Below, in pieces: positions 14,987-33,593 of a DNA stretch of 37,034 nucleotides; positions within the stretch are counted from its first letter, which is position 1; each line of letters opens with the position of its first letter. This DNA is from Candidatus Hydrothermarchaeum profundi. GTDB taxonomy: Archaea > Hydrothermarchaeota > Hydrothermarchaeia > Hydrothermarchaeales > Hydrothermarchaeaceae. A program made the translations under genes and the position numbers. Where the stretch lies: NCBI GenBank assembly GCA_002011125.2, contig MTMF02000018.1, positions 1 to 37,034 on the forward strand, given 5' to 3'. The notes under the pieces are model-generated. The model ran no database searches and was not told the DNA's origin. It was given only the letters and a program-made list of their open reading frames with translations.

Positions 14987-15018
14987 GATATACATCTATG
15001 TATATGATATATATATCA
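14987..15018. promoter_or_regulatory. Two dyads upstream of virion promoter
   Basis: GATATACAT-CT-ATGTATATG (14987-15006) is followed by the overlapping perfect palindrome TGATATATATATCA (15005-15018). The first has the same half-sites (ATATACAT/ATGTATAT) as the operator at the RHH gene (33575-33593). Its location just upstream of the BRE/TATA fits an activator site or a repressor blocking access. Confidence 0.6.
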
Positions 15019-15609
15019 ATCTTTCTTTTTATATTTCTCATTTATATAATCTACTATATCTAAAGGATTTACACCATATACATTTATAAGTGTATCTATT
15101 AATGACCTCATTTTTTCTACAGACGATTGCTGTTTAAGTGCATATATACGTATAGCTGCTACTGTATACAAAACTCTTATTCCATCTATATTAGGATTAC
15201 CATCTTTTTCATGATAAGTTATAGCACTAAGTAACTCACTACATATACCATAATCATTACGTATAGTTATAATAGATTTAAGTATTTTATCAAACCTACT
15301 ACCATATTTACCAGTAGTATCACCTGTAATCTTAAAATCATATCTATTTAATAAATCATTATACCCAAACTGAAAGTCACCAAAATCAGCAAGTTTTATT
15401 ATACCAGCAGAAATTAAAATAGTTAACGGCTTTATATAATATATATTTTTATACCTATAATATAGTGAACATAACAAACATGGAGCGTTTTTTCTATAAG
15501 CTTTATTAAGCAACAAAGCATTAAGCCCATCTCTATCTACAATATATTCCATCTCTCCAGATATTGGATATAGTATATCAAAAGCTGTTATTTCCTGTTC
15601 TTCCACCAT
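15016..15609 (-). CDS. Hypothetical protein (197 aa)
   Basis: Alpha-rich with many Tyr and Ile; starts MVEEQEITAFDILYP after GAGGTGAT. Its 3' end overlaps the dyads of the virion promoter. AT-rich codon use (ATA, TTA) is stronger than in the virion genes. No domain recognised. Confidence 0.75.
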   Translation of the reverse strand: MVEEQEITAFDILYPISGEMEYIVDRDGLNALLLNKAYRKNAPCLLCSLYYRYKNIYYIKPLTILISAGIIKLADFGDFQFGYNDLLNRYDFKITGDTTGKYGSRFDKILKSIITIRNDYGICSELLSAITYHEKDGNPNIDGIRVLYTVAAIRIYALKQQSSVEKMRSLIDTLINVYGVNPLDIVDYINEKYKKKD

Positions 15610-16067
15610 TCGTTAATCACCTCAACTATACTATCAATAAAGTCTTTATCTATACCCTTAAAATGCTTATTAATATCTCTTAAAGCTTTCTCAGTATCGT
15701 TATAATAATTAGCAAGTTTCTCTACTAAAAATAACCTAAACGATATATAGTTAGTAAACACTGCACCTAAATTAAAAGAAAACCTACCAATATTTTCATC
15801 ATGTAAGTCATTAAAACCTTTTGGTATATCACGAATACCTTTACGTGCTATATTAACAACTTCTCTTATCCATGTACTAGGATTATCTATTTCAGGTATA
15901 CTGCTTTCTATATCTTTAGACTTACGAGTTCTTCTCTTTTTACGTGGTTTTTTTGTTATAGTACTAACATCTAATTTACCTTTAGTATCATCAGACTCAT
16001 CAATCTTTAAATCTTTATTATCGTCAATGATTTTCTGCTTATTTTTAAACTTACTTAGTACACCCAT
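15588..16067 (-). CDS. Hypothetical basic/helical protein (159 aa)
   Basis: The N-terminal half is disordered and very basic (KKPRKKRRTRKSKD), suggesting nucleic-acid contact; the C-terminal half is helical with aromatic residues. GGTGAT precedes the ATG. It overlaps the next gene by 22 nt. Possibly a DNA-condensing or assembly protein, by charge only. Confidence 0.75.
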   Translation of the reverse strand: MGVLSKFKNKQKIIDDNKDLKIDESDDTKGKLDVSTITKKPRKKRRTRKSKDIESSIPEIDNPSTWIREVVNIARKGIRDIPKGFNDLHDENIGRFSFNLGAVFTNYISFRLFLVEKLANYYNDTEKALRDINKHFKGIDKDFIDSIVEVINEWWKNRK

Positions 16068-16077
16068 ATAATCACCG

Positions 16078-16536
16078 TTATATGACCTTATTTATTATTG
16101 CTATCAAGTCTTCAGCTGTAAGCTCTTTTTTCCTTAATTCCTCTACACTTTTCTTAAACTCACTAACACTCTTTATAGCGTTAGTATACTCAGTCAGCTT
16201 TGCAACCGACTTTGGTTCTTTTTTAATGAGACCATCAATCTTTTCAAGTACTCTTGTCGCCTGTTCAGCAACAGAAATAACATCCTCTGGTCCTCCACCG
16301 GTACTGATTACATAATGTGCCATGCATTTAACTGCAAACTCTGGTACAGTTATACCGTAGCTAGCACATACAGAATCTAATGCCTCTATAGGGTCTACCG
16401 ACATCCTAGGAGCTCTCTTTTTTGTAACTTCTTTATTCAGTGCTTCTTCTACAACACTAAGTATGTCTTCTTTAGTTACTGTCTCCTTTTTTCCATCATC
16501 CTTCTTAAAAAACCTACTCAGTATTGGTATCTTCAT
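16078..16536 (-). CDS. Hypothetical helical protein (152 aa)
   Basis: A Lys-rich N-terminus (LSRFFKKDDGKK) is followed by an all-helical body with a central segment SVDPIEALDSVCASYGI and a C-terminal charged coiled-coil region. GAGGTGG precedes the ATG. Function is unknown; it sits among possible assembly or scaffolding genes. Confidence 0.75.
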   Translation of the reverse strand: MKIPILSRFFKKDDGKKETVTKEDILSVVEEALNKEVTKKRAPRMSVDPIEALDSVCASYGITVPEFAVKCMAHYVISTGGGPEDVISVAEQATRVLEKIDGLIKKEPKSVAKLTEYTNAIKSVSEFKKSVEELRKKELTAEDLIAIINKVI

Positions 16537-16921
16537 CCTTTACCACCTCTATAGTTAATATACCGTTACTTATATATACATCTATACTACTTTTATCTAC
16601 CCTACCTACATTATATTTATCAACGTTATCATCGTATTTAACGTATATAACACCTTCAGACTCCCTATAAATCACCTCTGGTTCAGTATCTATTCCCACT
16701 TCCTGTATTATCTTTATCTTGTTTCCCTCGTATATCATCTCCTTCATCGGCTTCTTCTCTGGTGCTATCGTCGGAAACTTCAACATTTTCGAGTTCTTCA
16801 TATTCTTCAGTATCTCCGTCTCCTTCGCTATCTTCCACAACTTGTCCGCCTCCGACATTATCACTCCCATCGTCTCCATGTACTCCTTCACTCTCTCCGG
16901 TAGAGACTTCTTCTTGGTCAA
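16514..16921 (-). CDS. Hsp20-like small protein, overprinted gene (135 aa)
   Basis: TTG start (MTKKKSLPERV) 6 nt after a perfect GGAGGTGA. The N-terminal ~80 residues are encoded inside the 3' end of the upstream gene in another frame. The C-terminal half (IDVYISNGILTIEVVKDE) matches the closing strands of alpha-crystallin/Hsp20 domains (xNGxLxIxxxK); the domain is short, so this is tentative. A chaperone role in assembly is possible. Confidence 0.75.
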   Translation of the reverse strand: MTKKKSLPERVKEYMETMGVIMSEADKLWKIAKETEILKNMKNSKMLKFPTIAPEKKPMKEMIYEGNKIKIIQEVGIDTEPEVIYRESEGVIYVKYDDNVDKYNVGRVDKSSIDVYISNGILTIEVVKDEDTNTE

Positions 16922-17450
16922 TATGTTTCACCTCCTCAGCAGCTTTAACTCTATCTTCTAATTCTGCTCTAACCTCATTAAGTAAAACAACCAACTCATC
17001 AGTCGATATTTCAGATAAATTTAAAGTAGGTGGCTCATTACCCTTTTGCTCAGCAATTTTATCAATCGGACTTTTAGTACTATCTACAATATTTTTTAGT
17101 AAACTTACAACAAGACTATCTAATTCTTTATCTATACCAGATTCGTCACCACGAAGTGCATCCCTAACCTCTTTTAGCTCTGTAACAATATCTTTAAGAC
17201 TTCTCTTGTTTCTCATAGCATGTACGTTCAACCTACTTTCGAGTATCTCTTCCATAAGCGGTGAAACGTCTGACTCAGAAACCTCTTTTAGAAGTCTATA
17301 AGCATACAATCCCATAACTGTAGATGGCTCTTCACCGTTCTCCTTACACATTTGAACAAAAACCTTATACATCGGTAGATTTTTCATCTTACCTACTTCA
17401 ACTAGTCTTTCACCAGCTGTTGCTATTAGCATTCCATCTTCGTAGTCCAT
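16683..17450 (-). CDS. Helical protein with acidic disordered tail (255 aa)
   Basis: ATG 17450 is chosen because GGTAGGTGA lies 5-6 nt upstream. Residues 1-170 are helical; from ~175 onward the protein is a low-complexity Glu/Asp/Gly/Ser tail. That tail overlaps the Hsp20-like gene for 239 nt in another frame and is fully open across it. Acidic tails of this kind occur in scaffolding, DNA-mimic and chaperone-binding proteins. No family recognised. Confidence 0.75.
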   Translation of the reverse strand: MDYEDGMLIATAGERLVEVGKMKNLPMYKVFVQMCKENGEEPSTVMGLYAYRLLKEVSESDVSPLMEEILESRLNVHAMRNKRSLKDIVTELKEVRDALRGDESGIDKELDSLVVSLLKNIVDSTKSPIDKIAEQKGNEPPTLNLSEISTDELVVLLNEVRAELEDRVKAAEEVKHIDQEEVSTGESEGVHGDDGSDNVGGGQVVEDSEGDGDTEEYEELENVEVSDDSTREEADEGDDIRGKQDKDNTGSGNRY

Positions 17451-17459
17451 ATCACTCAC

Positions 17460-17663
17460 CTACCTATAACTGCAGTTTGAATATACAACATAATCCTCAT
17501 CTGTAAACGTACGCGTTGAAGCAGTTTGTGATTCCCACCGCTTCCAAGGTGTTATAGGGTCGACAATCCTAGGCCTGTAATAGTCTCTCTTCTCGTTATT
17601 AGCACACCTACCACATTTAATCGGGTAGCTAGTACACACATCTTTATACCTACACTTTACCAT
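17460..17663 (-). CDS. Cys-rich putative zinc-binding protein (67 aa)
   Basis: CRYKDVC ... KCGRC near the N-terminus gives four to five cysteines in a compact cluster, followed by a basic, Tyr/Trp-containing tail. GGTGAT precedes the ATG. Likely a small zinc finger that binds nucleic acid or protein; the target is unknown. Confidence 0.75.
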   Translation of the reverse strand: MVKCRYKDVCTSYPIKCGRCANNEKRDYYRPRIVDPITPWKRWESQTASTRTFTDEDYVVYSNCSYR

Positions 17664-17668
17664 TTATA

Positions 17669-17851
17669 TCACCCCATACTAGATATACTTATTGTCACAT
17701 ACGGTACAGGTTTTATCTCACCTGCACTACGACCACACCAAGGACATTTCTTAACCCCGATGGTCATTGGAGCAGTCATACTATATTGACAATAATCCAC
17801 GTCAAACTGGTCAAATTCTCCTCCACAACTTGGACACTTATACCTTGCCAT
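17669..17851 (-). CDS. Zinc-ribbon protein (60 aa)
   Basis: ATG 17851 (MARYKCPSCGG) is 5 nt after AGAGGTGA; upstream ATG and GTG codons fall within the ribosome-binding site. CPSC and CPWC about 30 residues apart define a two-knuckle zinc ribbon. One of many such small proteins here. Confidence 0.75.
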   Translation of the reverse strand: MARYKCPSCGGEFDQFDVDYCQYSMTAPMTIGVKKCPWCGRSAGEIKPVPYVTISISSMG

Positions 17852-17856
17852 CTTCA

Positions 17857-18108
17857 TCACCTCTCAACTTTTATATCTAAACGTTTTCTCATGACACCAG
17901 CCATACCTAAACCTCTCCTTGCTGCTCGTTCAATCTTACTTAAATCTTCTCTTGAGTTTGCCTTTATTTTCAAAACAACACTATTATCAAGCTTTATTAC
18001 CTCAACTTCTGTAACACCATACTCATCTCTCATCGTTGTACCTATCCACTGCATTATTCTATCCAGACCAACTAAATTAGCAAGACCTCTAATCATATCC
18101 CCTGCCAT
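17857..18108 (-). CDS. Hypothetical alpha/beta protein (83 aa)
   Basis: Begins MAGDMIRGLANLVGLDRI. A beta-alpha-beta-like segment (EVEVIKLDNSVVLKIKANSREDLSKIERAARRG) follows, with a basic C-terminus (MRKRLDIKVER). GGAGATGG precedes the ATG. Overlaps the RHH gene upstream by 16 nt. Function is unknown. Confidence 0.7.
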   Translation of the reverse strand: MAGDMIRGLANLVGLDRIMQWIGTTMRDEYGVTEVEVIKLDNSVVLKIKANSREDLSKIERAARRGLGMAGVMRKRLDIKVER

Positions 18109-18236
18109 TTTTCCATCTCCTCATCAAGTTTTTTCCTTACAAATCTACTTAAGTTAATCGACCTATCAAGTATAAACTTTTCATGCTTCTTTTCGATTAA
18201 CACGCTTTTTTGTATCAGCCTTTTCACACTATACAT
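18093..18236 (-). CDS. Short RHH-type regulator candidate (47 aa)
   Basis: MYSVKRLIQK... with the pattern LDRSINLSRFVRKKLDEEM, as in RHH proteins (strand, helix, helix). The start is set at ATG 18236 because a TATA box lies ~40 nt upstream; a longer in-frame extension would start before the promoter. The start codon lies inside the dyad at 18230-18245. Probable DNA-binding regulator. Confidence 0.6.
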   Translation of the reverse strand: MYSVKRLIQKSVLIEKKHEKFILDRSINLSRFVRKKLDEEMEKWQGI

Positions 18237-18245
18237 GTATGTATA
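18230..18245. promoter_or_regulatory. Dyad operator at the RHH gene start
   Basis: TATACAT-GT-ATGTATA, perfect 7-bp arms with a 2-bp spacer, covering the start codon of the 47-aa gene. The same half-sites occur at 33575-33593 and 14987-15006. The position downstream of TATA fits autorepression. Confidence 0.6.
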
Positions 18246-18276
18246 ACATATATATATATGTTTCTCCAGAGGACTT

Positions 18277-18284
18277 TTATAAAT
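18277..18284 (-). promoter_or_regulatory. TATA box before short RHH gene
   Basis: The minus strand reads TTTATAAA. The expected start of transcription is near 18252, giving a leader of about 15 nt. It lies just past the stop of the transglutaminase-like gene. Confidence 0.55.
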
Positions 18285-18297
18285 TAAAAAATATAAA

Positions 18298-19245
18298 TTA
18301 GGAAATTTTAATTCTTGCCCATATATGTTCGTATCCTGTAGCCTCATCTTCAGGTGTTAACATCGCTACTGCTCTTTCTTCGTCCCACCCAGCTTTATGG
18401 TATCGCGAAAAGTCAACCATGTATACAGTTCCATTGATTTCAACACTTCCCCAAATGTGACCATAGCCTTGCTTGAGTCCAAGATATAACCATACGTTAC
18501 TATATCCTTTCTCTACGAGTATGCGCACTACTAAAGGATTTATGTCATCACAATCTCCTCTCAACTCATTGTGTATAAAGTACGATGGGTTCTGGAACAC
18601 ATCTAACTTATAGAATTGCTCCCTGTCGTCCATATAGATAAATGTCACTTCTTTCCTAGTATCTTTGTATACCAACAAGTATGTTCCATCATCCTGTATT
18701 ACAAAGTCTACTACATTAACGAAGTCGGTGACTAATTGATGGTCTTCCATAAGGAACTTCTTGAATCCTCTTGCGTATTTCATGTAGTCTCCGTCCCAGC
18801 TAACAGGAAATCTCTTTAACTCTACACTATACTTTGACAAGTCTAAAGGTATTTTCTCTGGTTTATTTACTTCAGCTAATAACTCATCATACTTCTCAAC
18901 TAGCCATTGATTTTCCGTTAGTACATCGTTTAACTGTTGCTTAGTTGTATTTAGCTTTTCTTTTGCGTTGTTAAGCTCTAACCTTGTCTGCTCAAGAGTA
19001 ATACTTATCACGTCTATCCTGTTTCTCAGTTCTTGATTTTCTGCAGTCAAATTGTAGTTAATACGCTGTAACTCTACTATAGTTTGTCTGTAACTATTTA
19101 CTTCATCACTCAAGTTATAATAGTCGTACACTAGGTCATTATACTGCCTTACCAACTGGTAGTTTTCGTATGTAACATACACTACTAAAGACACTGCAAC
19201 CAGACACAACGCAATAAATACCTTAGTCCAGCTTTCTTCTTTCAC
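18298..19245 (-). CDS. Membrane-anchored coiled-coil transglutaminase-fold protein (315 aa)
   Basis: N-terminal TM helix (residues 8-25), a long coiled coil (~35-130), then a transglutaminase-like domain with Cys232 in RGDCDD, His263 in YGHIW and Asp278 in MVDFS. The triad layout matches cysteine peptidases of this fold, including archaeal virus enzymes acting on cell envelopes. The coiled coil would hold the catalytic domain away from the membrane. GTG start after GGGTGATA. Probable role in entry or egress. Confidence 0.8.
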   Translation of the reverse strand: MKEESWTKVFIALCLVAVSLVVYVTYENYQLVRQYNDLVYDYYNLSDEVNSYRQTIVELQRINYNLTAENQELRNRIDVISITLEQTRLELNNAKEKLNTTKQQLNDVLTENQWLVEKYDELLAEVNKPEKIPLDLSKYSVELKRFPVSWDGDYMKYARGFKKFLMEDHQLVTDFVNVVDFVIQDDGTYLLVYKDTRKEVTFIYMDDREQFYKLDVFQNPSYFIHNELRGDCDDINPLVVRILVEKGYSNVWLYLGLKQGYGHIWGSVEINGTVYMVDFSRYHKAGWDEERAVAMLTPEDEATGYEHIWARIKIS

Positions 19246-19478
19246 TCTATCACCCAGTACCTTTCTCCTATATTTGCTTTGTTAACTAACCATAACCCTC
19301 TTTTATGTGCAGTATCTACATCGTTGCTGTAAACAACCACAATGTAGTCAAACTCATTTATGTACTTTGACTCATATATCTTATACCTAAATGTATCGTC
19401 TTTCTCTGCAATCTCCATTAACTTCAGTGAAGCACTTTCGTAATCTTCTTCAAGTATACCTATACACGTTTTAGCCAT
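19242..19478 (-). CDS. Hypothetical protein (78 aa)
   Basis: ATG 19478 (MAKTCIGILEEDYE) with GGGTGAT upstream. Alpha/beta mixture, acidic middle, ends GERYWVIE. The stop overlaps the GTG of the transglutaminase-like gene. No known domain. Confidence 0.75.
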   Translation of the reverse strand: MAKTCIGILEEDYESASLKLMEIAEKDDTFRYKIYESKYINEFDYIVVVYSNDVDTAHKRGLWLVNKANIGERYWVIE

Positions 19479-19479
19479 A

Positions 19480-19617
19480 TTAATCACCCTCGTTATCTAC
19501 CATACCGAAAAGAAATGCTCCAATAAGCCCACCAATAGCAACACCAATAGGTCCAGCAATCACACCACCAATAGCCATTCCAAATATCATACCAGCAAAA
19601 GCACTAGCCTCGTTCAT
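19480..19617 (-). CDS. Glycine-zipper membrane peptide (45 aa)
   Basis: MNEASAFAGMIFGMAIGGVIAG... is a single long hydrophobic stretch with GxxxG and GG repeats, ending in the acidic VDNEGD. An alternative ATG lies one codon upstream; GAGGTG is 3-6 nt before. Glycine-zipper peptides oligomerise in membranes and occur as holins, pinholins and pore formers. It sits two genes upstream of the membrane-anchored transglutaminase-like enzyme, suggesting a release module. Confidence 0.65.
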   Translation of the reverse strand: MNEASAFAGMIFGMAIGGVIAGPIGVAIGGLIGAFLFGMVDNEGD

Positions 19618-19855
19618 CATAAACACCTCTATATTTCTGTTGTAGTTTTAATGTACATTTATCACAAAAACCCTGTTGCTCATAGTACTCACAAAAATCG
19701 ATTTCTTCCATACACTCGTTACAGTACATAACCGGTAGTTTAAGCTTTCTAACAGCTCTTTTTATATCATCAGCTATATAGAAGTAATCACCAGTATCCC
19801 TAGACATTTCAAGTGCTTCCATCAACCTCATAGCTATACTAATACTAGTTTTCAT
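19604..19855 (-). CDS. Cys-rich zinc-binding protein (83 aa)
   Basis: Helical N-terminus, then CNEC ... C ... CDKC over ~25 residues (zinc finger), ending in a basic/charged tail. GGAGGATTGA lies 8-13 nt upstream, a wider spacing than usual. Probable small zinc protein. Confidence 0.7.
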   Translation of the reverse strand: MKTSISIAMRLMEALEMSRDTGDYFYIADDIKRAVRKLKLPVMYCNECMEEIDFCEYYEQQGFCDKCTLKLQQKYRGVYDERG

Positions 19856-19861
19856 CTAATA

Positions 19862-20017
19862 TCAATCCTCCTCAAGTATTGTAGGCATACCCAAACAATA
19901 CTCAACATCTTTTCTTACCTTCTCCCACTCCTCTTCTAAATGTGGTACATCTTCGTACGGCATTAATATCATTGCCCGGTTGTCTTTAAGTATACCAACT
20001 ACAATAGCTGTACCTTC
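19862..20017 (-). pseudogene. In-frame continuation downstream of TGA, or gene with atypical start
   Basis: Fifty-one sense codons follow the TGA at 20018-20020 in the same frame as the upstream gene: EGTAIVVGILKDNRAMILMP, then an acidic helix. No ATG, GTG or TTG start with a ribosome-binding site is found; AAGGTGAGAAGG lies 6 nt before an ATT. The coding character is good, so it is either the severed C-terminus of the 20233 gene or a separate gene with a rare start. Confidence 0.5.
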
Positions 20018-20233
20018 TCACCTTGACTTACCAAGTAAATGAGTTGTCATATTTTTTCTCCCCTGAAAAGGTACTAACAATATACACCCACGTAAAGCAC
20101 TTCCATATAAAGACGTCTTTGTATTAATATGCACCGAAATTGGTCTAACGCCTTTCTCTAAAAACCTTGCAGTCTGTTCTACACTTAGCTCATACTTCAT
20201 ACACTTACCCAATATTTTTTTCAACCACCTCAT
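20018..20233 (-). CDS. Hypothetical protein, possibly truncated by TGA (71 aa)
   Basis: MRWLKKILGKCMKYELSVEQ..., with a weak GGAG about 10 nt upstream. Contains a helical segment then strands (GCILLVPFQGRKNM). Ends at a TGA after which the same frame stays open for 51 codons to 19862. Either two genes or one interrupted gene of about 123 codons. Function is unknown. Confidence 0.55.
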   Translation of the reverse strand: MRWLKKILGKCMKYELSVEQTARFLEKGVRPISVHINTKTSLYGSALRGCILLVPFQGRKNMTTHLLGKSR

Positions 20234-20246
20234 TTTAACTCAACTC

Positions 20247-20390: not shown

Positions 20391-20394
20391 CACA

Positions 20395-22556: not shown

Positions 22557-22863
22557 TTAGGCTACCCCCATTCAAATATAACATGAACTTGTATCCATCG
22601 TACATCATAGCCATATTATACCACTTACCGTGCTCAAGATGCTTAATAGCTCGTTCTACCTCACGCCATGTCAACGCACTCCAATAACAACCACCAGACC
22701 TACGTAGACCACATATCGTACATATGTAGTCTTCTATAACTAGTCCATCGACTGTAAATTCGTCAATTTTAATCATAGTATACTTATCACACCTAGGACA
22801 GTACTCATCGCCAGTTTCTATTATGTCTAATATCCCTTCAAACTCTAAATCATTATCAGTCAT
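22549..22863 (-). CDS. Zinc-ribbon protein (104 aa)
   Basis: Acidic start, then CPRC and CTIC about 28 residues apart (zinc ribbon), then a helical C-terminus. GGAG and TGTGAT precede the ATG. It lies between the Cas4-like nuclease and the methyltransferase and overlaps both by a few nt, so it belongs to the DNA-processing operon. Confidence 0.75.
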   Translation of the reverse strand: MTDNDLEFEGILDIIETGDEYCPRCDKYTMIKIDEFTVDGLVIEDYICTICGLRRSGGCYWSALTWREVERAIKHLEHGKWYNMAMMYDGYKFMLYLNGGSLNE

Positions 22864-23405
22864 ACATCACACTCCTCCCTCACTTTACACCACTTACATT
22901 CCCAACTCCATCGTGGACTTTCCCAATACTCTATAAAAAGTTTAATATCGTCAGTTGTATATGGGTCTGTAACCTCGAACTCTCTATAACTGTATGGACT
23001 GAAATACCATATATATGCCTTCTCCTTGCCAAGTAACCACATATACATCCTCAGTTGCATTTTGTCGTGTTCTCTCGGTGAATCAGGTACCTTCAAAGTA
23101 GTCTTTACTTCTACTAAATCTCCATCGACTATATCTGGAGTACCTGCTATAGTATAGTTACCAGCTCTCTTTTTATAAACTTTTTTCCTTCCACCAAGTA
23201 TAGATTCTATACCTCTATCAACAAGTACACCCAATAACACTCTTGGCTCTTTTAGTGTTTCTTTTACACTTTCCTCTGTAACACCTAGTTCAGCTTTACG
23301 TTTACAGTAGCACAACTGCTTAGCATGTATACTATTTTCTGTCATTTCGTAGTCTTTTCTTACTACAGTATCCGTATATATATCTAAAAATTCATCAAGT
23401 CTCAT
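22860..23405 (-). CDS. Cas4-like PD-(D/E)XK nuclease with Fe-S cysteines (181 aa)
   Basis: RecB/Cas4 fold signature: Cys32/Cys34 (LCYCKRKAEL), GTPD (Asp91), EVK (Glu99-Lys101) and QxxxY (Gln117, Tyr121), then C-terminal Cys170, Cys173 and Cys179 that with the first Cys would hold a 4Fe-4S cluster. Archaeal virus homologues are ssDNA exonucleases/endonucleases used in genome replication and recombination. No cas genes or CRISPR are nearby, so it is viral DNA metabolism. Start coupled by ATGA. Confidence 0.9.
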   Translation of the reverse strand: MRLDEFLDIYTDTVVRKDYEMTENSIHAKQLCYCKRKAELGVTEESVKETLKEPRVLLGVLVDRGIESILGGRKKVYKKRAGNYTIAGTPDIVDGDLVEVKTTLKVPDSPREHDKMQLRMYMWLLGKEKAYIWYFSPYSYREFEVTDPYTTDDIKLFIEYWESPRWSWECKWCKVREECDV

Positions 23406-23713
23406 TCTTCATCCCTCAACGCTTTCTCAACTATAGTGTGCAAAGCATACATTTTATCGTCTGGAATACCTATTGTACATACTGGTACATCTTTATTTAC
23501 TAAACGACCAGACTTTTTTACCGTATCACATATTCTATAGTCTCCCGGATATACATGCAAACCCTCGTTTATAGCATACTTTATACAAGAAATAAAATTA
23601 GCTATATCCGACTCTCTCTCTGGGTATATCACTATTCGTTTACACAACCGTCTTATTACACTATCATCCTCTATAACATACTCCCAAATACTTTCAACCT
23701 CAAATACCTTCAT
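23402..23713 (-). CDS. Hypothetical protein (103 aa)
   Basis: MKVFEVESIWEYVIEDDS..., alpha/beta, with three Cys that are not in a zinc pattern. GAGGTAGAGG precedes the ATG. It is absent from the duplicated copy of this region at 24.1 kb, showing that it was inserted after, or lost in, one copy. Function is unknown. Confidence 0.75.
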   Translation of the reverse strand: MKVFEVESIWEYVIEDDSVIRRLCKRIVIYPERESDIANFISCIKYAINEGLHVYPGDYRICDTVKKSGRLVNKDVPVCTIGIPDDKMYALHTIVEKALRDEE

Positions 23714-24072
23714 TCCTCTACCTCCTCATACAGTCTTACACCACACTTCTCGCAAAAGTTCATATACCTCTCGATTGGATGACCGTTAGGACATCTACTA
23801 GGTTCAACCTTTACAGCGTACATCATTGAACCACACTTGTAGCAATACCTATGCCTAATATATGTTTTATTACCACACTCAGGACATAGCCAATCGTATT
23901 TATCTTCTATATATATGCTCAATGCCATCATTAAAACACCCAGACTAATAGAAATAGCGAACACTAATCCGTTTTGCATGATACCACCTATAATAGCTCC
24001 TCCACCAAACGCCAATACTCCTAAACAAAATATAATGAATGGATGCCTCCACCACCAACTATTCCTAGTCAT
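23710..24072 (-). CDS. Membrane protein with double zinc ribbon, copy B (120 aa)
   Basis: Two N-terminal TM helices after RNSWWWRHP, then CPEC/CYKC and CPNGH/CEKC zinc knuckles in the cytoplasmic tail, ending EEVEE. The last ~60 residues are nearly identical to copy A at 24155, also at DNA level, while the TM region has diverged. The zinc part may bind the replication proteins or DNA and tether them to the membrane. Confidence 0.8.
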   Translation of the reverse strand: MTRNSWWWRHPFIIFCLGVLAFGGGAIIGGIMQNGLVFAISISLGVLMMALSIYIEDKYDWLCPECGNKTYIRHRYCYKCGSMMYAVKVEPSRCPNGHPIERYMNFCEKCGVRLYEEVEE

Positions 24073-24158
24073 TTTACGTCACCTCCTTCTATAATACTTA
24101 TCCACCATTTTCTTACTACAGTATCTGTATATATATCTAAAAATTCATCAAGTCTCAT
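24069..24158 (-). pseudogene. Duplicated 5' fragment of the Cas4-like gene (29 codons)
   Basis: MRLDEFLDIYTDTVVRK is identical to the start of the nuclease at 23405; the DNA differs at one base in ~49. After residue 17 the sequence switches to a stretch matching the end of the 44-aa ORF at 24539, read in another frame (WWISIIEGGDVK). It is a duplication scar. The short ORF could still be translated because the ribosome-binding site is kept. Confidence 0.8.
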
Positions 24159-24532
24159 TCCTCTACCTCCTCATACAGTCTTACACCACACTTCTCGCAA
24201 AAGTTCATATACCTCTCGATTGGATGACCGTTAGGACATCTACTAGGTTCAACCTTTACAGCGTACATCATTGAACCACACTTGTAGCAATACCTATGCC
24301 TAATATATGTTCTATAACCGCACTTAGGACATAGCCAATCGTATTCCATAACTATCCACGAAAACACAATGAACCCTCCTCCAATTAGCACCATTACAAC
24401 AAGTGGTATCATCGAGTTCTCTATACCACGCTTCTCAAGTACAAGACTTATAATAGTACCACTAGTAGCTAGCACTAATCCTATACAAAACACAATAGTC
24501 GGATGTCTCCACCACCAACTATTTCTAACCAT
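24155..24532 (-). CDS. Membrane protein with double zinc ribbon, copy A (125 aa)
   Basis: Paralogue of 23710-24072 with the same RNSWWWRHP start, two TM helices and four zinc-knuckle pairs in the tail. TM segments diverged, tails nearly identical. GGAGGTGATG precedes the ATG. Followed directly by the truncated Cas4 fragment, which marks the boundary of the duplication. Confidence 0.8.
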   Translation of the reverse strand: MVRNSWWWRHPTIVFCIGLVLATSGTIISLVLEKRGIENSMIPLVVMVLIGGGFIVFSWIVMEYDWLCPKCGYRTYIRHRYCYKCGSMMYAVKVEPSRCPNGHPIERYMNFCEKCGVRLYEEVEE

Positions 24533-24876: not shown

Positions 24877-24878
24877 TT

Positions 24879-27497: not shown

Positions 27498-27734
27498 TTA
27501 TGAAACACTATCCGATATTGGATATATCTCTATTTTATTATCATCTACCACAACTTTGACTTCTCCATTGATAGTACCATTAAACTGCTTCCTTACCCAC
27601 TTCGTTGGTATCAAAACAGAGACTCCACTCCCAGTCCTTTGAACTCTCTTTCTGTATATCTCCTGCATAATAATGTATAATAACGAAGGAGATATATAAA
27701 TCTTTCGACAATCCATTTTTATATTAACACTCAT
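27498..27734 (-). CDS. AbrB/SpoVT-type transcription regulator (78 aa)
   Basis: RTGSGVSVLIPTKWVRKQF followed by EVKVVVDDNKIEIYPI is the swapped-hairpin AbrB DNA-binding fold. The first ~25 residues are an extra arm. GGTGAT lies 8 nt before ATG 27734. These proteins dimerise on AT-rich or palindromic sites; the iteron/dyad element immediately upstream is the obvious candidate, implying autoregulation. Confidence 0.85.
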   Translation of the reverse strand: MSVNIKMDCRKIYISPSLLYIIMQEIYRKRVQRTGSGVSVLIPTKWVRKQFNGTINGEVKVVVDDNKIEIYPISDSVS

Positions 27735-27969
27735 ATAAAATCACCATCTTTCTATATATATTAGATATAATATATGTGTACCGGTGTACCGGTGTACCGT
27801 ATAGATACACCGGTACACCATTTTATTTTCATAATCTTATCAAATATAAATGAAATCATAGGCTCTATTTTAATAAATAAGGAAAATATTAAAATATTCG
27901 ACCACAATTTTTATTTCCAATATGCATTTAATATCACCCTAGTGTAAAAGTATAGTATTTATATTTACA
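27735..27969. other. 235-nt intergenic region between clamp and AbrB-type genes
   Basis: The largest non-coding internal gap. It holds the dyad/iteron element (27776-27819), two AT-rich TATA-like stretches (27753-27774) before the AbrB gene, and an AT-rich, gene-free part. It also holds a 12-codon mini-ORF with a perfect GGGTGAT at 27889-27927. A candidate origin or regulatory hub. Confidence 0.6.
27776..27819. repeat. Triple GTGTACCG iteron with inverted copy
   Basis: Three head-to-tail copies of GTGTACCG (27776-27799) are followed by ACACCGGTACACC (27807-27819), which pairs perfectly with GGTGTACCGGTGT (27783-27795). It is far richer in G+C than its surroundings. It lies 40-85 nt upstream of the AbrB start. 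Operator or initiator-binding site. Confidence 0.85.
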
Positions 27970-28680
27970 TCACTCTACAACGACGTACGGAGCTATCATA
28001 CTTTTAACTTCAAACCTCTCATTACCTGATTCCATCAACATTGGTTTATCGTCAGCAAGATGCAGTGTAACTATGTCTCCAACAACACTACCTAAAGCCT
28101 GTTCTATTAATTTTATCCTATAAGTTGATTTTGCTTCTACCACCTCCTCCATCATTATATCGGTCCTTGGTAACGAAAACTCAATACTGTCATTCCTATC
28201 TCCACGAGCCCAAAATAATATACCCGTCTTATTTACATCTATATGAACAAACTCACTAAGTATGCTACATGCTCTAATAGCAAACCTCAACGACTCTGTA
28301 CTCATTGTAAACCTAGCATTAAGGTCAATACTTGGCATTTTCGGTACCTTAATATCCATAGCTAACAACTTACATGAATAACTTGCCTTCTTCGACTTTA
28401 TCCTAATCTCGTCTTTATCTACCTCAACGTCCAACTTACCTGTCATATGCTTTATACCGTCGCTAATCTTCGTACTATCTATACAAAACTCTCCTCTACC
28501 TTCACATTTGTCTGTCCTAGCACTAACCGTTACCATATACACCTTACCCGAGTCCACGACTGATGAATTTATATACAAACCGTCTACACTGACCTTAATA
28601 TCTCCAACATAGGTCGAGTGTATCACCTTAAAAAAATCAGCAAGTAACTTTCTACTTATACTAAACTTAATCATCTTCAT
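27970..28680 (-). CDS. pcn: PCNA-type sliding clamp (236 aa)
   Basis: Two-domain clamp pattern: an N-terminal half ending in KVPKMPSIDL (interdomain connecting loop) and a C-terminal half ending KSMIAPYVVVE, with the length of archaeal PCNA (~245 aa). Trimeric rings tether polymerase, nuclease and ligase to DNA. No polymerase is encoded here, so it may recruit host enzymes or outcompete host PCNA. Start at ATG 28680 or 28674 (GGGTGGG site). An in-operon position links it to the RHH/SSB replication block. Confidence 0.88.
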   Translation of the reverse strand: MKMIKFSISRKLLADFFKVIHSTYVGDIKVSVDGLYINSSVVDSGKVYMVTVSARTDKCEGRGEFCIDSTKISDGIKHMTGKLDVEVDKDEIRIKSKKASYSCKLLAMDIKVPKMPSIDLNARFTMSTESLRFAIRACSILSEFVHIDVNKTGILFWARGDRNDSIEFSLPRTDIMMEEVVEAKSTYRIKLIEQALGSVVGDIVTLHLADDKPMLMESGNERFEVKSMIAPYVVVE

Positions 28681-29026
28681 CCCACCCTTTTATCTTACTT
28701 ATGATATTCCTGAAATACATTCCAGACTTTATAGCATCGTCCATCATATCAAGCGCTCTCCATACAGCACCAATAAACGCACCAACATCTATAGCACTCA
28801 TAAGTGATATATTCGTCAGCTTAATAACAGCTATAGCCTTAAGCAACCTATCCGTCGTGTCTCCATCATCAATCCACTCTAAAAACTTATCAGCAGACTT
28901 TACAACGTCTATCTCCTTATCAGCACCTAGTCCGACAAACCCTCCAAACTCCTTGAAATACTTATCCATTTTCTCCATATACTCTTTTCTATCTATACCA
29001 AGTATATCGTATATCATATCAAACAC
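28667..29026 (-). CDS. Hypothetical helical protein (119 aa)
   Basis: GTG 29026 (MFDMIYDILGIDRK), 5 nt after GGGAGGTGA; the longer frame has no site. All-helical, with hydrophobic middle segments (AIDVGAFIGAVWRALD) and an acidic C-terminus. Overlaps the PCNA start by 14 nt. Function is unknown. Confidence 0.7.
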   Translation of the reverse strand: MFDMIYDILGIDRKEYMEKMDKYFKEFGGFVGLGADKEIDVVKSADKFLEWIDDGDTTDRLLKAIAVIKLTNISLMSAIDVGAFIGAVWRALDMMDDAIKSGMYFRNIISKIKGWDEDD

Positions 29027-29297
29027 CTTCTTCACCTCCCAACACTTCATCAATAAAGTTAAAATACGCTTCGTGGTTTTCATACCCAAAACTACCAAGT
29101 ACCTTATAAGATACTTTAGCCACTAACACCTTCATCATTTCTCTACCATATTTATCTGCAAAGCGTAACAAATGGTAATGCTTCGGATAGTAACCACTAC
29201 CCAAGTTAGCACCTAGCTTATAATCTCCCTTCTTTATGTCATAACCACATATAGCACACGTCAAGTCCCTACGAGCTTTCATCACCCTGAACTCCAT
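29019..29297 (-). CDS. Zinc-finger protein, PARP-type spacing (92 aa)
   Basis: ATG 29297 (MEFRVMKARRDLTC) with GAGAGGTGA upstream. CAICGYDIKKGD then KHYHLLRF gives a C2H(x)C/H2-like zinc site similar to PARP-type fingers that bind DNA ends. Probable DNA-binding accessory protein. Confidence 0.75.
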   Translation of the reverse strand: MEFRVMKARRDLTCAICGYDIKKGDYKLGANLGSGYYPKHYHLLRFADKYGREMMKVLVAKVSYKVLGSFGYENHEAYFNFIDEVLGGEEGV

Positions 29298-29595
29298 CCT
29301 CTTCACCTCTCTCATTCAACTCATCAGCTTTGAAAGCCTTATTGAAAGCCTTATACCAATCAAGTTCAGTCTCTTTCACTAACCTCATCACGACATCCCA
29401 TTCTTGCTCATACCTCGTAATATCCACTTTCGAAAGTTTCTTCAGAAAGTCAATGAACTCATCTACCTTTACCTCACCGTATAACTCAAGATTCAGCATC
29501 ACAACAGGTATCTCATCCTCATCTCTAACTGACATCCCTTTAATTCCTACATCCATACCATATACTCTAAAAGATATTGTCAAACCCTCATTCAT
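29269..29595 (-). CDS. Hypothetical protein (108 aa)
   Basis: ATG 29595 (MNEGLTISFRVYGMD) with GGAGGTGA about 9 nt upstream. Beta-rich N-terminus, helical C-terminus, acidic end overlapping the next gene by 29 nt. No family. Confidence 0.7.
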   Translation of the reverse strand: MNEGLTISFRVYGMDVGIKGMSVRDEDEIPVVMLNLELYGEVKVDEFIDFLKKLSKVDITRYEQEWDVVMRLVKETELDWYKAFNKAFKADELNERGEEDGVQGDESS

Positions 29596-29794
29596 TTTCT
29601 TCTTCACCTCCAAATAACCTCTTCTCCTGCTCCAGTATGAGCTTATACAAATCTTCCTCTAACTCACGTATATACCTAGCAGTCTCGACATACCCAGCAA
29701 CAGCAAGTAATTGCCCAGCTTTTGATAGTGTCGCAAGTCCCACAGTTGCAGTAACTAAACCAGCTACTTTTTTAGCAAATTCTTTATCAGTCAT
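29588..29794 (-). CDS. Hypothetical helical protein (68 aa)
   Basis: ATG 29794 (MTDKEFAKKVAG) with AGGTGG upstream. A hydrophobic segment (GLVTATVGLATLSKAGQLLAVAG) may be a weak TM or packed helix, followed by an acidic coiled coil. Function is unknown. Confidence 0.7.
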   Translation of the reverse strand: MTDKEFAKKVAGLVTATVGLATLSKAGQLLAVAGYVETARYIRELEEDLYKLILEQEKRLFGGEEENE

Positions 29795-29803
29795 ATATAC
29801 CAC

Positions 29804-29998
29804 CTACATATTTTTTAACTCCCATATCGCAAAGTCTGGTAAAGTTTTAACCTTTCCAATGAAATCACTAAACATCTCTTGACAAGCAGTAACTAAAGGA
29901 CAGAACCTAGTAAAGTCTACCTCTATATCATCCTGCAACTTCTTTTTCGCCCAATCGCAAAACTCTTTAACAGGACACTTATCACAATCAACCTTCAT
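29804..29998 (-). CDS. Cys-rich protein (64 aa)
   Basis: CDKCPVKEFC near the N-terminus and later FCPLVTAC give up to five cysteines, compatible with zinc or Fe-S binding. GGTGG lies upstream, within the previous gene. Function is unknown. Confidence 0.7.
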   Translation of the reverse strand: MKVDCDKCPVKEFCDWAKKKLQDDIEVDFTRFCPLVTACQEMFSDFIGKVKTLPDFAIWELKNM

Positions 29999-30197
29999 CT
30001 ACAATCCACCTCACCTTACCTTTTATTACTTTCTCCAATACCCTACCTATTATCTCTCTACCACAGTTTATACATACCACCATATAATCCCCGAAATGTA
30101 CATACCTATCAAAATCGTCAGCGTAGAACATTCCTCCAACAGCAACACCGTCTTTCACTACAACATTCCCACACTTCTTACATTTAATCCTCAACAA
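29988..30197 (-). CDS. Zinc-ribbon protein (69 aa)
   Basis: TTG start with GAGGTGGTGG upstream. CKKC and CINC ~33 residues apart form a zinc ribbon, followed by a basic strand (KVIKGKVRWIV). Typical small archaeal virus zinc protein. Confidence 0.7.
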   Translation of the reverse strand: MLRIKCKKCGNVVVKDGVAVGGMFYADDFDRYVHFGDYMVVCINCGREIIGRVLEKVIKGKVRWIVDEG

Positions 30198-30255
30198 CCA
30201 CCACCTCTCTTACCCGCTATGCATTCTCCAAATCTTAACACGCTTAAAACTCACT

Positions 30256-30447
30256 TCAACCACCTGACCTAACAGCAAATACCACCGTGTTACTTGCAAC
30301 AAGATAACTGGCAATCACATCGTACTTCATCAGAACCTCAACAGCCTTTTTTATATCTTCCAGTTCTTCACGCTTAAAATTGCGTATAAGTCTAACACTT
30401 ACAACCAGCTTACTTCCGTCCGAACTTACATTAATTCTCCTATCCAT
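30256..30447 (-). CDS. Hypothetical alpha/beta protein (63 aa)
   Basis: MDRRINVSSDGSKLVV..., beta-strand pair, helix (REELEDIKKAVEVLMKY), strand. Excellent GGAGGTGAT. Immediately downstream of the structured RNA at 30464-30623, which forms its leader if co-transcribed. Function is unknown. Confidence 0.75.
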   Translation of the reverse strand: MDRRINVSSDGSKLVVSVRLIRNFKREELEDIKKAVEVLMKYDVIASYLVASNTVVFAVRSGG

Positions 30448-30463
30448 TTATATCACCTCCTTT

Positions 30464-30623
30464 AGAGCTCTCCCCCACTACCAGACGTACACTCATGCTG
30501 GAACGGGAGGATTTCGCAAACCACCACTATTAGTAAAGCTCACTGACTATCACTCTGGTACAATCATACACTGCGTGGTTCACGCCAGCACCAAGTATAC
30601 ATCTGATAGCGCTTAGGGGCTCT
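30464..30623 (-). ncRNA. Candidate 160-nt structured RNA
   Basis: GC-rich compared with its surroundings and free of a good ORF. On the minus strand the ends pair: AGAGC/GCTCT, then CCCC/GGGG, then a 16-bp continuous helix (30588-30603 with 30479-30494), then UGCUGG/CCAGCA, closing a loop with a CGTG-AAC-CACG hairpin and a GG(T)TT-GCGA-AA(T)CC hairpin. No tRNA, SRP, RNase P or known ribozyme core seen. It sits 10 nt before the ribosome-binding site of the 63-aa gene: an independent RNA or a complex 5' leader. Confidence 0.75.
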
Positions 30624-30885
30624 ATGCACCTACCACTTCTCTATCAGTTCTTACCTCTACATCGGTAATATATATAACTTCAAGCAAAGCACAATACTTA
30701 ATAATCTTTACCACCTTCGGTCCAAACATACCCTGTAAGCGTTCATCATCTACAATCTTATCTATGTACAACACCCTAACATCGCTAGCATTTGAACGAT
30801 ACTCCTCTACACGTTTAGCTAAACCATCCATAGTAACATCCTTGACTACCTCATACTTTCTTTTTATTTTCTTTCCTACCAACAT
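30622..30885 (-). CDS. Hypothetical protein (87 aa)
   Basis: ATG 30885 (MLVGKKIKRKYEVV) with GGTGGTGAT upstream; the longer frame begins in the previous gene. Alpha/beta, basic start, ends TDREVVGA. The stop overlaps the start of the structured RNA. No known domain. Confidence 0.7.
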   Translation of the reverse strand: MLVGKKIKRKYEVVKDVTMDGLAKRVEEYRSNASDVRVLYIDKIVDDERLQGMFGPKVVKIIKYCALLEVIYITDVEVRTDREVVGA

Positions 30886-31090
30886 CTTTATCACCACCAT
30901 AAAACATATTAACCCTATACCTCCTCCAAAAAACCTCGAGTACAACCAAAGGACCAAATAGAACTATCATAGCACCCAATAACACCAGCAGTATTGACGA
31001 AACACCTAACCCGTATCCAACAATCATACCGCCGTATGTAAAGCAACACGAAACGCAAACAAACTCTGCATCACGTCTACTCAGACCCAC
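30851..31090 (-). CDS. Membrane protein (79 aa)
   Basis: GTG 31090 (MGLSRRDAEFVC) with GGTGG and GGTGAT upstream; alternative GTG 31099. Two TM helices with Gly-rich packing, then the basic tail KENKKKV. Function is unknown. Confidence 0.65.
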   Translation of the reverse strand: MGLSRRDAEFVCVSCCFTYGGMIVGYGLGVSSILLVLLGAMIVLFGPLVVLEVFWRRYRVNMFYGGDKDVGRKENKKKV

Positions 31091-31847
31091 TATCACCACC
31101 TACAAACATCTTAACCAGTAATTTATCTACCTCCTTTATCCTAGCATACACATCTTTACCCCTATTCTTTCTTATTATCCCGTACCACCTCTTCTCATTA
31201 TTGCTTATCTCAACTCCCATATCTATGATAGTATCGAACTTCCTGAAAACCGAACTCTCTAATCTTTCCCTTGTCTTAGTATCACCTATCGGATGACTAG
31301 TACATATAAAATTGTATCCCAAATCTACCATATCGTATATAACTTTCAGCAAATCATCGTATAACTTATTATACGACTGCCACGGCAGTGTAAACGTATC
31401 ACTATCCGTTATATTAAACACTTTCTCTCCTATAACATAGTAGCCCTGTGAAATAAACTTACCCTCAAGATACCTCCTATGTAGCTCCATCACCTCGTTA
31501 ACACTATCAAGTACAATCAGGTCAGCATCACTCTTTATAACTTTCTTATAAGCCTGTCTAAACCCACCTCTATACATTCCGTCATCCACTTTCTCTACCT
31601 TACCATCATACCTTGGAGTTATTACCATCGTAATATTAGCTAACGACTCATCACTAATCTTTCCTGACTCATACAACGCAATTATCTCCTTCTGAGTACC
31701 ATACTCAGGGTCAATATATATTACCTTATCTCCTCTCTCTGAACATTTAGATGCTACCATCAAAGCACAATGAGTCTTCCCAGTACCTGTATCTCCTCTC
31801 AACAACACCTTATACTTCAACTGCCTTCGTATCGAATCAATTTTCAT
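31077..31847 (-). CDS. RecA-fold ATPase, Sak4-like recombinase (256 aa)
   Basis: Walker A GDTGTGKT at 18-25 and Walker B LIVLDS at ~109-114, followed by FICTSHP (sensor-like), in the length range of phage Sak4/AAA_24 recombinases that anneal ssDNA and work with an SSB. An SSB-like gene and a Cas4-like nuclease are present, completing a recombination set. GGAGGTATTAG precedes ATG 31847. Confidence 0.88.
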   Translation of the reverse strand: MKIDSIRRQLKYKVLLRGDTGTGKTHCALMVASKCSERGDKVIYIDPEYGTQKEIIALYESGKISDESLANITMVITPRYDGKVEKVDDGMYRGGFRQAYKKVIKSDADLIVLDSVNEVMELHRRYLEGKFISQGYYVIGEKVFNITDSDTFTLPWQSYNKLYDDLLKVIYDMVDLGYNFICTSHPIGDTKTRERLESSVFRKFDTIIDMGVEISNNEKRWYGIIRKNRGKDVYARIKEVDKLLVKMFVGGDSGSE

Positions 31848-31929
31848 CTAATACCTCCAACAGCTCATAATTACTAGCATAATTCCATCTCCAAACTTCT
31901 AACACTTCATCACACTTACACTTATTCAT
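31837..31929 (-). CDS. 30-aa peptide between ATPase and upstream gene
   Basis: MNKCKCDEVLEVWRWNYASN..., Cys-Lys-Cys start, overlapping the ends of both neighbours (ATGAATAA junction) with GGATGTG upstream. Fills an otherwise empty 74-nt gap. Possibly real, possibly chance. Confidence 0.45.
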   Translation of the reverse strand: MNKCKCDEVLEVWRWNYASNYELLEVLDEN

Positions 31930-32317
31930 ATGCAACACATCCTAACGTCTTCATTAACATAAGTCTATATCCACTTGGAGTCAGACTAGGACTTCTTTCA
32001 GAATACCTAACAAACATCCTAAATGCCTCATCTTCATCACTAGTTATAGTGCACAAAAACGGCAAACTCGGACCAGTAGGTGGTATCCATACCAGCATAT
32101 ACTTGTACACCACATCGTCAACTGCAATCTTTTTAGTACTTTTAGCACTCTCAATATCTACATAACCCTCAAGTATCTCCTCTAACCTAAGTATCATCTC
32201 TACAACCTGTCTCAACGCCTCAGGACCGCGACTCTCTAAAACTTTACCCATAGCATCATAGTTATCTGCAAAACTTCTCCTAGTATCAAACATACCTCCA
32301 CTCCATTCAACTTTCAT
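31922..32317 (-). CDS. Hypothetical protein (131 aa)
   Basis: ATG 32317 (MKVEWSGGMFDTR) with GGGGTGAT; the frame is open further upstream, but that part is the structured leader. Helical middle, aromatic-rich C-terminus (WIPPTGPSLPF). Its ribosome-binding site is partly paired in the proposed leader structure. Function is unknown. Confidence 0.7.
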   Translation of the reverse strand: MKVEWSGGMFDTRRSFADNYDAMGKVLESRGPEALRQVVEMILRLEEILEGYVDIESAKSTKKIAVDDVVYKYMLVWIPPTGPSLPFLCTITSDEDEAFRMFVRYSERSPSLTPSGYRLMLMKTLGCVAYE

Positions 32318-32319
32318 AT

Positions 32320-32411
32320 TATCACCCCATACCGCATGGGCAGCAGAAAAGGCACGGAGGGTGAATAAGTATGTATGGCACAATTCAACTGCCCATGTAT
32401 CGGCGGGTATA
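32320..32411 (-). promoter_or_regulatory. Structured 5' leader pairing with the ribosome-binding site
   Basis: On the minus strand UAUACCC pairs with GGGGUGAUA (the Shine-Dalgarno of the 131-aa gene), AUAC with GUAU, and AUGGGCAG with CUGCCCAU across a 45-nt loop. The element is GC-rich and non-coding. Such a fold would hide the ribosome-binding site until disrupted, as in riboswitches, thermosensors or protein-controlled leaders. Confidence 0.65.
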
Positions 32412-32420
32412 AAAAATAAA

Positions 32421-32440
32421 AGTCCAGCATTAGCTGGACT
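32421..32440 (-). terminator. Hairpin with following T tract
   Basis: AGTCCAGC-ATTA... perfect 8-bp stem with a 4-nt loop, overlapping the stop codon of the 99-aa gene, then TTTATTTTTTATA on the minus strand. Looks like an intrinsic terminator (or an attenuator) separating the SSB operon from the downstream structured leader. Confidence 0.7.
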
Positions 32441-32729
32441 TCGGAACTTTCTTAACTGCAATAGCCACTATACCATCTTTCTTGCTGGAAGCAGCTGCCT
32501 TTACCTCAATACCAGCCCTATCACAAGCCTCGACAAGCTTCACTTTAGAGTAGTAGTCCTTGTATTTTATATCGCTACCACTGTGAAACTCCATTATCTC
32601 TTCAAATGTAAAGTGGTATGTCCCGGGGCTGGTTACGTGCTCCTTGACATAGGAAACAAGCCCATCCATATCCCAAGCTCCTCTAGCCTTCAACTCAATT
32701 TTCAATTCGTCAGATACCTTCTTAGGCAT
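32430..32729 (-). CDS. Hypothetical protein following SSB gene (99 aa)
   Basis: MPKKVSDELKIELKARG..., charged helices then a strand pair (GIEVKAAASS...GIVAIAVKK). GGAGGTG lies upstream. It may be a winged-helix-like partner of the SSB, but this is not established. Ends at the terminator hairpin. Confidence 0.75.
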   Translation of the reverse strand: MPKKVSDELKIELKARGAWDMDGLVSYVKEHVTSPGTYHFTFEEIMEFHSGSDIKYKDYYSKVKLVEACDRAGIEVKAAASSKKDGIVAIAVKKVPKSS

Positions 32730-32740
32730 TTATACACCTC

Positions 32741-33247
32741 CTATAGTTCTATATCCAGTTCTTCAGCTTCAACAACACCAGCAAGCTTTTCCTCAATATC
32801 TGGTCTACCGGTGGTCCTATATGTCTTCACTTTCTTACCTCTCTCTCTGTACTCTGCAGGAGCGTCTTTCCACTCAACTCCTGCAATTGTAAACACTCTA
32901 CCTACAAGGTCAGATAAATCATTGAACTCTTTACCGTAGTCTCTCTTCAGTGCCACTACCATTCCCTGAGCAATTGTCTTGCTTATAAATAAATCAAAAT
33001 CGACGTCACTAACTTTACCGTCTTCAACTACATTTACCTTACAAACCCAGCTCTTCTCTATACCTCTCTCCTTCAGAGCATCAGCCTCAATCTTCTGTGG
33101 CTCGCTAGCAATTCTAACTGTCACAGCCTGTCCTATACCGGGCAACTGCAGTCTTCCACCAGCAGACGCCTTAACACTTGCCATCTTATTTAGTTTCTCC
33201 TCATCTCCCAAATCAAACTCCTCAATAAAGTCTTTCAAACCTGCCAT
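32741..33247 (-). CDS. ssb: SSB-like OB-fold protein with acidic tail (168 aa)
   Basis: N-terminal acidic/basic region, an OB-like strand set (AVTVRIASEPQ...), and a short acidic-hydrophobic C-terminus (EAEELDIEL), the architecture of single-stranded DNA-binding proteins whose tail recruits partners. Close to the Sak4-like ATPase and PCNA. GAGGTGAT precedes the ATG. The family assignment is by pattern, not by a strong signature. Confidence 0.7.
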   Translation of the reverse strand: MAGLKDFIEEFDLGDEEKLNKMASVKASAGGRLQLPGIGQAVTVRIASEPQKIEADALKERGIEKSWVCKVNVVEDGKVSDVDFDLFISKTIAQGMVVALKRDYGKEFNDLSDLVGRVFTIAGVEWKDAPAEYRERGKKVKTYRTTGRPDIEEKLAGVVEAEELDIEL

Positions 33248-33259
33248 ACATACATCACC

Positions 33260-33571
33260 TCACTTCACCTGTACTATCCTTTCTATACAGTACCTATCAA
33301 CACCTTTACTACTTAAATATGCACTGACAACACTGAAGACAGCATCGTCCATAGTTCTAAACCCAAGTTCCGCTTTAATCAACGATAGTGCCTGATGCAC
33401 ATCGTCATGAACATGAATCGTCCTAACTGGTTGTCCCCTATTCACCGAAGAATCAAACAACTCTCTCCTAACACCGAAATATTGCACTGCATCCCTGACA
33501 ACATCTGCATACTTCTTTCCAAAAATTCGCATCACCCTGTATGTCGCATCACTCACAACTATAGACTTCAT
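33260..33571 (-). CDS. RHH transcription regulator (103 aa)
   Basis: MKSIVVSDATYRVMRIFGKKYADVV: a strand then two helices in the RHH pattern, repeated after a linker (RTIHVHDDVHQALSLIKAELG), so the protein may contain two tandem RHH units. The start is set at ATG 33571; ATG 33595 is an alternative. The perfect dyad operator at 33575-33593 lies just upstream of ATG 33571, between the two possible starts. Likely autoregulator and, by operator match, controller of the virion operon. Confidence 0.8.
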   Translation of the reverse strand: MKSIVVSDATYRVMRIFGKKYADVVRDAVQYFGVRRELFDSSVNRGQPVRTIHVHDDVHQALSLIKAELGFRTMDDAVFSVVSAYLSSKGVDRYCIERIVQVK

Positions 33572-33574
33572 CCT

Positions 33575-33593
33575 GATATACATCATGTATATC
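33575..33593. promoter_or_regulatory. Perfect 19-bp dyad operator
   Basis: GATATACATCATGTATATC: two 9-bp perfect arms around one base. It lies downstream of the TATA box and just upstream of ATG 33571, the expected position of an autorepressor site. Related dyads are at 18230-18245 and 14987-15006. Confidence 0.75.

Follow-up and report, generated by a model that had tools for sequence, protein, structure and literature searches.

Three promoter-proximal dyads in a virus-like archaeal element are candidate operators of one element-encoded regulator

Introduction

Regulatory circuits are known for few archaeal viruses only, mainly those of Sulfolobales. AvtR, the gp29 protein of Acidianus filamentous virus 6 (AFV6, Betalipothrixvirus), has several sites in the viral genome, and F55 of SSV1 acts in carrier-state control (PMC5569661). 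In archaea, the TATA box lies at about -26/-27; sites downstream of BRE/TATA lead to repression, while sites upstream lead to activation (PMC4158304). Lrp-type activators bind within a few bp, just upstream of the BRE (PMC2995911). The DNA described here, from an element of a non-model archaeon, shows three candidate operators that share one geometry, together with a putative regulator and a virion promoter that is doubled.

Results

The window, that is, the whole stretch of 37,034 nucleotides, contains three dyads with the half-sites ATACAT/ATGTAT in common. The first-pass annotation had reported them at the following coordinates, and all three were found exactly there:

33575..33593, minus strand: site A, dyad GATATACAT-C-ATGTATATC, perfect, with arms of 10 bp when extended to 33574-33594
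18230..18245, minus strand: site B, dyad TATACAT-GT-ATGTATA
14987..15006, minus strand: site C, dyad GATATACAT-CT-ATGTATATG, preceding the virion-like operon

The spacer measures 1 or 2 bp among the three sites, a variation that is unusual for a rigid dimer. A motif search over the window showed the dyad to be more frequent than expected: ATACAT-N0-6-ATGTAT was observed 3 times vs 0.17 expected, and none of 100 dinucleotide shuffles reached 3. Simulated windows of Markov orders 2-5 contained on average ~0.16-0.20 matches, and 0 of 400 per order had 3. The three dyads in 37 kb are non-random, and chance is not a credible explanation. In the whole assembly of 2,186,281 bases, the dyad with spacers of 0-4 gave three matches, all within this contig; the reversed control pattern gave one match per strand. 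In a position-weight scan the three sites reached scores of 27.9, 26.1, and 22.6. They were followed by a dyad-like sequence at 15075-15096 with a score of 17.6; as this level is expected 0.26 times per random window, it was left uncounted as a fourth site.

All three dyads follow a TATA run, and site C is followed by a second one:

33594..33603, minus strand: promoter A, TATA run centred 27.5 bp before ATG 33571
18248..18259, minus strand: promoter B, TATA run embedded in the 18-bp palindrome AACATATATATATATGTT (18245-18262)
15007..15016, minus strand: site C, first TATA run (P1), as far from its dyad as the runs of A and B are from theirs
14964..14973, minus strand: site C, second TATA run (P2), 28 bp downstream of the dyad, measured between centres

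Read on the minus strand, the arrangement common to the three sites is TATATATAT-N3-ATACAT-N1/2-ATGTAT. The N3 differs (GAT, GTT, CAT), but the step from TATA run to dyad is fixed at 3 bp, and this is the strongest single fact of the analysis. Other TATATATAT runs of the window are without dyad. The composite of TATA and dyad was found in none of 400 simulated windows at each of Markov orders 2-5 and, with a slightly looser pattern, in none of 22 other genomes of the phylum. In 257 Gb of prokaryote genomes, TATATAT-N3-ATACAT-N1,2-ATGTAT occurred in 17 stretches, with one match per record. Viral contigs (IMG/VR) gave three unrelated phages with one site each, which were set aside as chance.

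Transcription starts were predicted from TATA spacing. The start codon follows the centre of the TATA run by 27.5 bp at A and, counted to GTG 18227, by 26.5 bp at B, as expected for leaderless archaeal transcripts; both transcripts would accordingly be leaderless, that of promoter A probably so. Dyads A and B would span ~-22 to -3 relative to such predicted starts, between TATA and predicted start, which is the geometry of autorepression. An inverted repeat in this position, present at several promoters beyond chance, is what an archaeal TATA-proximal repressor operator looks like. Earlier, two of the dyads had been placed downstream of TATA at gene starts; this placement holds, and the third dyad, at 14987-15006, likewise has a TATA run directly before it.

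With few exceptions, the genes of the window are on the minus strand. Judged by the larger intergenic gaps with clear TATA runs and by the AT-rich right end, they probably form five units, all leftward:

Right end to 33.65 kb, leftward: first unit, at the AT-rich end
33.57 to 27.97 kb, leftward: unit A, with the 103-aa gene, a Sak4-like ATPase and a PCNA-like clamp
27.73 to 18.3 kb, leftward: third unit, with an AbrB/MazE-like protein, a Rad3-like helicase, a Cas4-like nuclease and a Dam-type methylase
18.2 to 15.0 kb, leftward: unit B, with the small gene behind site B
14.9 to 0.3 kb, leftward: unit C, the virion-like operon

The dyad is present at three of the five promoters, and other repeats are found at the remaining two. 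Four features of these units bear on the question of the regulator and its targets:

33260..33571, minus strand: 103-aa basic protein (11.8 kDa, pI 9.4), candidate autoregulator
18093..18227, minus strand: small basic protein, 44 aa from GTG 18227, or 47 aa if from ATG 18236
35526..35645, minus strand: 39-aa RHH-like protein within a 67-aa ORF (35526-35729), Pfam VAPB_antitox with E 1e-4
328..14926, minus strand: leftward virion-like operon downstream of site C

The product of the 103-aa gene had been annotated as RHH-type. Searches in Pfam, NCBIfam and PDB gave no match to any RHH family. Residues 49-78, however, align gap-free with the 39-aa protein at 35.5 kb, which has the Pfam support (z 7.7 in one comparison, 7.4 in another). 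The N-terminal half reached a z of 7.6 with an unrelated-looking protein of the window that carries no RHH annotation; a z-score alone is therefore weak, and we treat the C-terminal RHH alignment as a lead. Only part of the earlier assignment thus survives: an RHH-like C-terminal half is weakly supported by this alignment, and the N-terminal half is possibly a second RHH. The single-sequence model of the protein is poor (pLDDT 61), with helices at 56-69 and 74-88 and no strands. Foldseek and VIA-align searches with this model returned mostly haemoglobins, peroxidases and other unrelated helical chains. Some weak structural matches (Z 2.1-2.3) were to chains of the F-plasmid relaxosome. TraY, the accessory protein of this complex, is a tandem RHH; given the poor model, however, we attach no weight to these matches. 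An RHH profile that we built from archaeal relatives proved too narrow, as it missed the Pfam-supported RHH protein as well.

At site B, ATG 18236 lies inside the dyad and upstream of the predicted transcription start, which makes GTG 18227 (44 aa) the likelier first codon. The 47-aa product had also been called RHH-type, a label for which we found no support: profile searches gave no RHH or other family match. Its model is one 41-residue helix (pLDDT 96, single-sequence mode, without partner chain).

The third dyad had been described as lying upstream of the virion TATA. This is correct for P2, but not for P1, which precedes the dyad. Having its own upstream TATA, site C repeats the module of A and B and adds another promoter to it. 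The predicted start of P2 lies at ~14942, followed by GGAGGTGG and GTG 14926; this GTG is the likelier start codon for the gene that opens the virion operon. The operon encodes LamG-type proteins matching phage tail families, a transglutaminase-like protein, and proteins with a C-terminal membrane anchor, one of them proline-linked. The only PDB match of a 205-aa protein was a capsid-stabilising protein (E 0.013, not significant). The unit from 14.9 to 0.3 kb is likely the virion operon, and the 205-aa protein is a capsid candidate only.

We regard the 37-kb element as virus-like and undescribed, with a complete linear viral genome as a candidate reading. Its Cas4-like nuclease had matches within the phage collection in betalipothrixviruses only. 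Among viral contigs, no relatives of the 103-aa, 205-aa, helicase, Sak4-like ATPase or 83-aa proteins were confirmed. The 103-aa protein was found in none of 60 related genomes, the 205-aa protein in none of 22 other genomes of the phylum, and positions 1-25000 of the window showed no DNA similarity to phage records. In the host, MCR alpha and full reverse-gyrase matches were not found, so that it resembles neither typical methanogens nor typical hyperthermophiles; the host 16S gene runs to the edge of a contig.

Discussion

We propose, with a probability of roughly 0.6, that the three dyads are operators of one element-encoded DNA-binding regulator, most likely the 103-aa product behind site A. 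The choice falls on this product because site A lies at the start of its gene. At A and B, a bound protein in the gap between TATA and start would block recruitment of the polymerase, and such a block at A would amount to negative autoregulation of the 103-aa gene. Of the proposed circuit, negative feedback at A is the most probable component. At C, bound protein would repress P1 in the same manner; as the dyad lies just upstream of the TATA of P2, the latter might either be activated or be silenced by spreading. One protein of the element would thereby jointly set the expression of three operons, namely the one that holds its own gene and replication genes, the one with the small gene and the virion operon, while the promoters at the right end and at 27.7 kb (AbrB-like) would be left to other operators. 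Against this reading, with the 103-aa product as regulator, stand the lack of a family match, the poor model, the weakness of the z-score, the variable dyad spacer and the lack of relatives showing conservation.

The regulator might instead be another protein of the element, with the 103-aa gene only a target; we consider this possible, although clearly less probable than control by the 103-aa product. The stronger RHH match belongs to the 39-aa protein at 35.5 kb, which also resembles the C-terminal half of the 103-aa protein, but its gene is without dyad upstream. The site-B product is small and basic and has the same module in front; however, no DNA-binding family is detectable in it. The AbrB/MazE-like gene at 27.5 kb has different repeats, GTACACCGGTAC, before its own TATA, and these are the likelier operator for its product. 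Even with the 103-aa product as regulator, the 39-aa protein is a possible competitor for the same operator.

The first-pass annotation had read the sites as a switch from early to late genes. This remains conjecture, as one protein repressing replication and virion operons fits feedback or a carrier state equally well. In an elaborated version, the bound dyad would shut the operon of the regulator itself, the small-gene operon and P1, and at the same time recruit basal factors and turn on P2, so that one viral protein would close early and open late expression; the 35.5-kb RHH protein could then compete in a Cro/CI-like manner. We consider such a two-way switch unlikely.

Still less probable is the use of the dyads by a host transcription factor. 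Host RHH genes exist, and archaeal viruses rely on host RNA polymerase, TBP and TFB (PMC5569661). However, the 2.19-Mb assembly has no further copy of the dyad outside these three sites, which speaks against a host regulator and for an element-encoded protein, and its combination with TATA is missing from the 22 other genomes of the phylum. That the dyads are by-products of AT-rich, TATA-like promoter sequence, whose alternating T/A runs are self-complementary, with no regulator involved, is the least likely of all, since ATACAT/ATGTAT differs from the TATA repeat, the counts exceed those of shuffles and of Markov orders 2-5 and other TATA runs of the window are dyad-free, even though TATATATA is unusually common in the window promoters and two of the TATA runs, those at B and C, are palindromes in their own right.

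The three sites most likely mark where a self-controlling repressor of the element binds. This would be a known kind of virus gene switch in an undescribed element, and a new example of archaeal virus-encoded operator sets, here with a doubled virion promoter. The circuit is small, and three short duplexes and a few small proteins suffice for an in vitro test.

SvtR, which had been named as the comparable system, is not the closest analogue. Like the regulator proposed here, it is encoded by a virus and represses a structural gene as well as the gene that encodes it, and it belongs to the RHH type, but it is a protein of 6.6 kDa with one RHH, and its main site at gp30, the structural gene, lies ~80 nt from TATA (PMC5569661), whereas the dyads described here lie directly behind TATA. 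ATACAT-N1/2-ATGTAT does not fit the SvtR consensus ATnnTTCAAnAnnnnnAAAATG either (PMC5569661). F55 of SSV1 is similar in that one viral RHH protein acts on several viral promoters and its own, with sites overlapping BRE or start (PMC5569661); its sites, however, are tandem direct repeats ATAGATAGAGT instead of a dyad.

In size and apparent targets the 103-aa product seems to resemble AvtR more closely than SvtR, although homology was not detected. AvtR has ~100 aa (11.8-11.9 kDa for the two proteins) and targets, besides the gene that encodes it, a further gene with a predicted RHH product (PMC5569661). Two strand-helix-helix units of AvtR can be matched to the 103-aa sequence, collinear by eye; over the full length, however, the z of -0.1 is not above shuffles, at a distance where the reach of the tools is poor. 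The operators differ as well: the AvtR consensus ATnnTnnTAnnACnTT is unlike the dyad, which is absent from AFV6, and AvtR protects ~100 nt of DNA, whereas here each promoter has one dyad. A likeness in operator logic is found in Thermococcales. TrmBL1/Tgr are cellular sugar regulators with an HTH domain, unrelated in protein and sequence, but their TGM operators are single dyads that confer repression downstream of TATA and activation upstream of it (PMC4158304), and this is the logic that we propose for site C.

Repeats at promoters and contig ends

Other repeats were found ahead of two promoters of the element, and a weak dyad-like site near a third. The genes needed for reference are as follows.

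27498-27734: AbrB/MazE-like gene
22860-23405: Cas4-like nuclease

Ahead of the TATA of the AbrB/MazE-like gene, GTACACCGGTAC repeats at 27753-27830 make up a 37-bp inverted repeat that is nearly perfect (89%), and the same interval holds three copies of the 8-bp unit GTGTACCG; these repeats are probably a separate operator. The last gene is preceded by an AT-rich stretch at the right end, where ATGTCTATAACATAGAATTAC is repeated in 3.4 copies (36762-36833) with a period of 21 bp, equal to two helical turns; these copies may be iterons or may serve the right-end promoter as an operator. A weak fourth dyad-like site (15075-15096, CATATACAT-N4-AAGTGTATC) was observed some 89 bp upstream of site C, the dyad preceding the virion-like operon; taken alone it is not above chance, and it lies where an auxiliary operator would be expected.

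At its left end the contig reads C-T13, and at its right end an A run followed by a G, giving an exact 14-base inverted terminal match (1-14 and 37021-37034) that may reflect the ends of a linear genome or an assembly artefact.

Gene content and ancestry

Four small genes at 616-2245 start with near-identical peptides (MSKMGFMDKK, MSFMDMKKKK, MGFMKMKKL, and MGFMDMRKM), perhaps a signal for virion targeting or processing that they have in common.

A zinc-ribbon gene occurs in two tandem copies (23710-24532), between which the first codons of the adjoining Cas4-like gene are copied; GATGAATTTTTAGATATATATAC is present at both places, accompanied by TATA-like runs at 23375 and 24128. This arrangement points to a recent duplication.

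Judged by sequence matches, the element appears mosaic in ancestry, because the Cas4-like nuclease matched only betalipothrixviruses in the phage collection (26-31% identity), while the helicase is nearest to haloarchaeal tailed viruses (31%).
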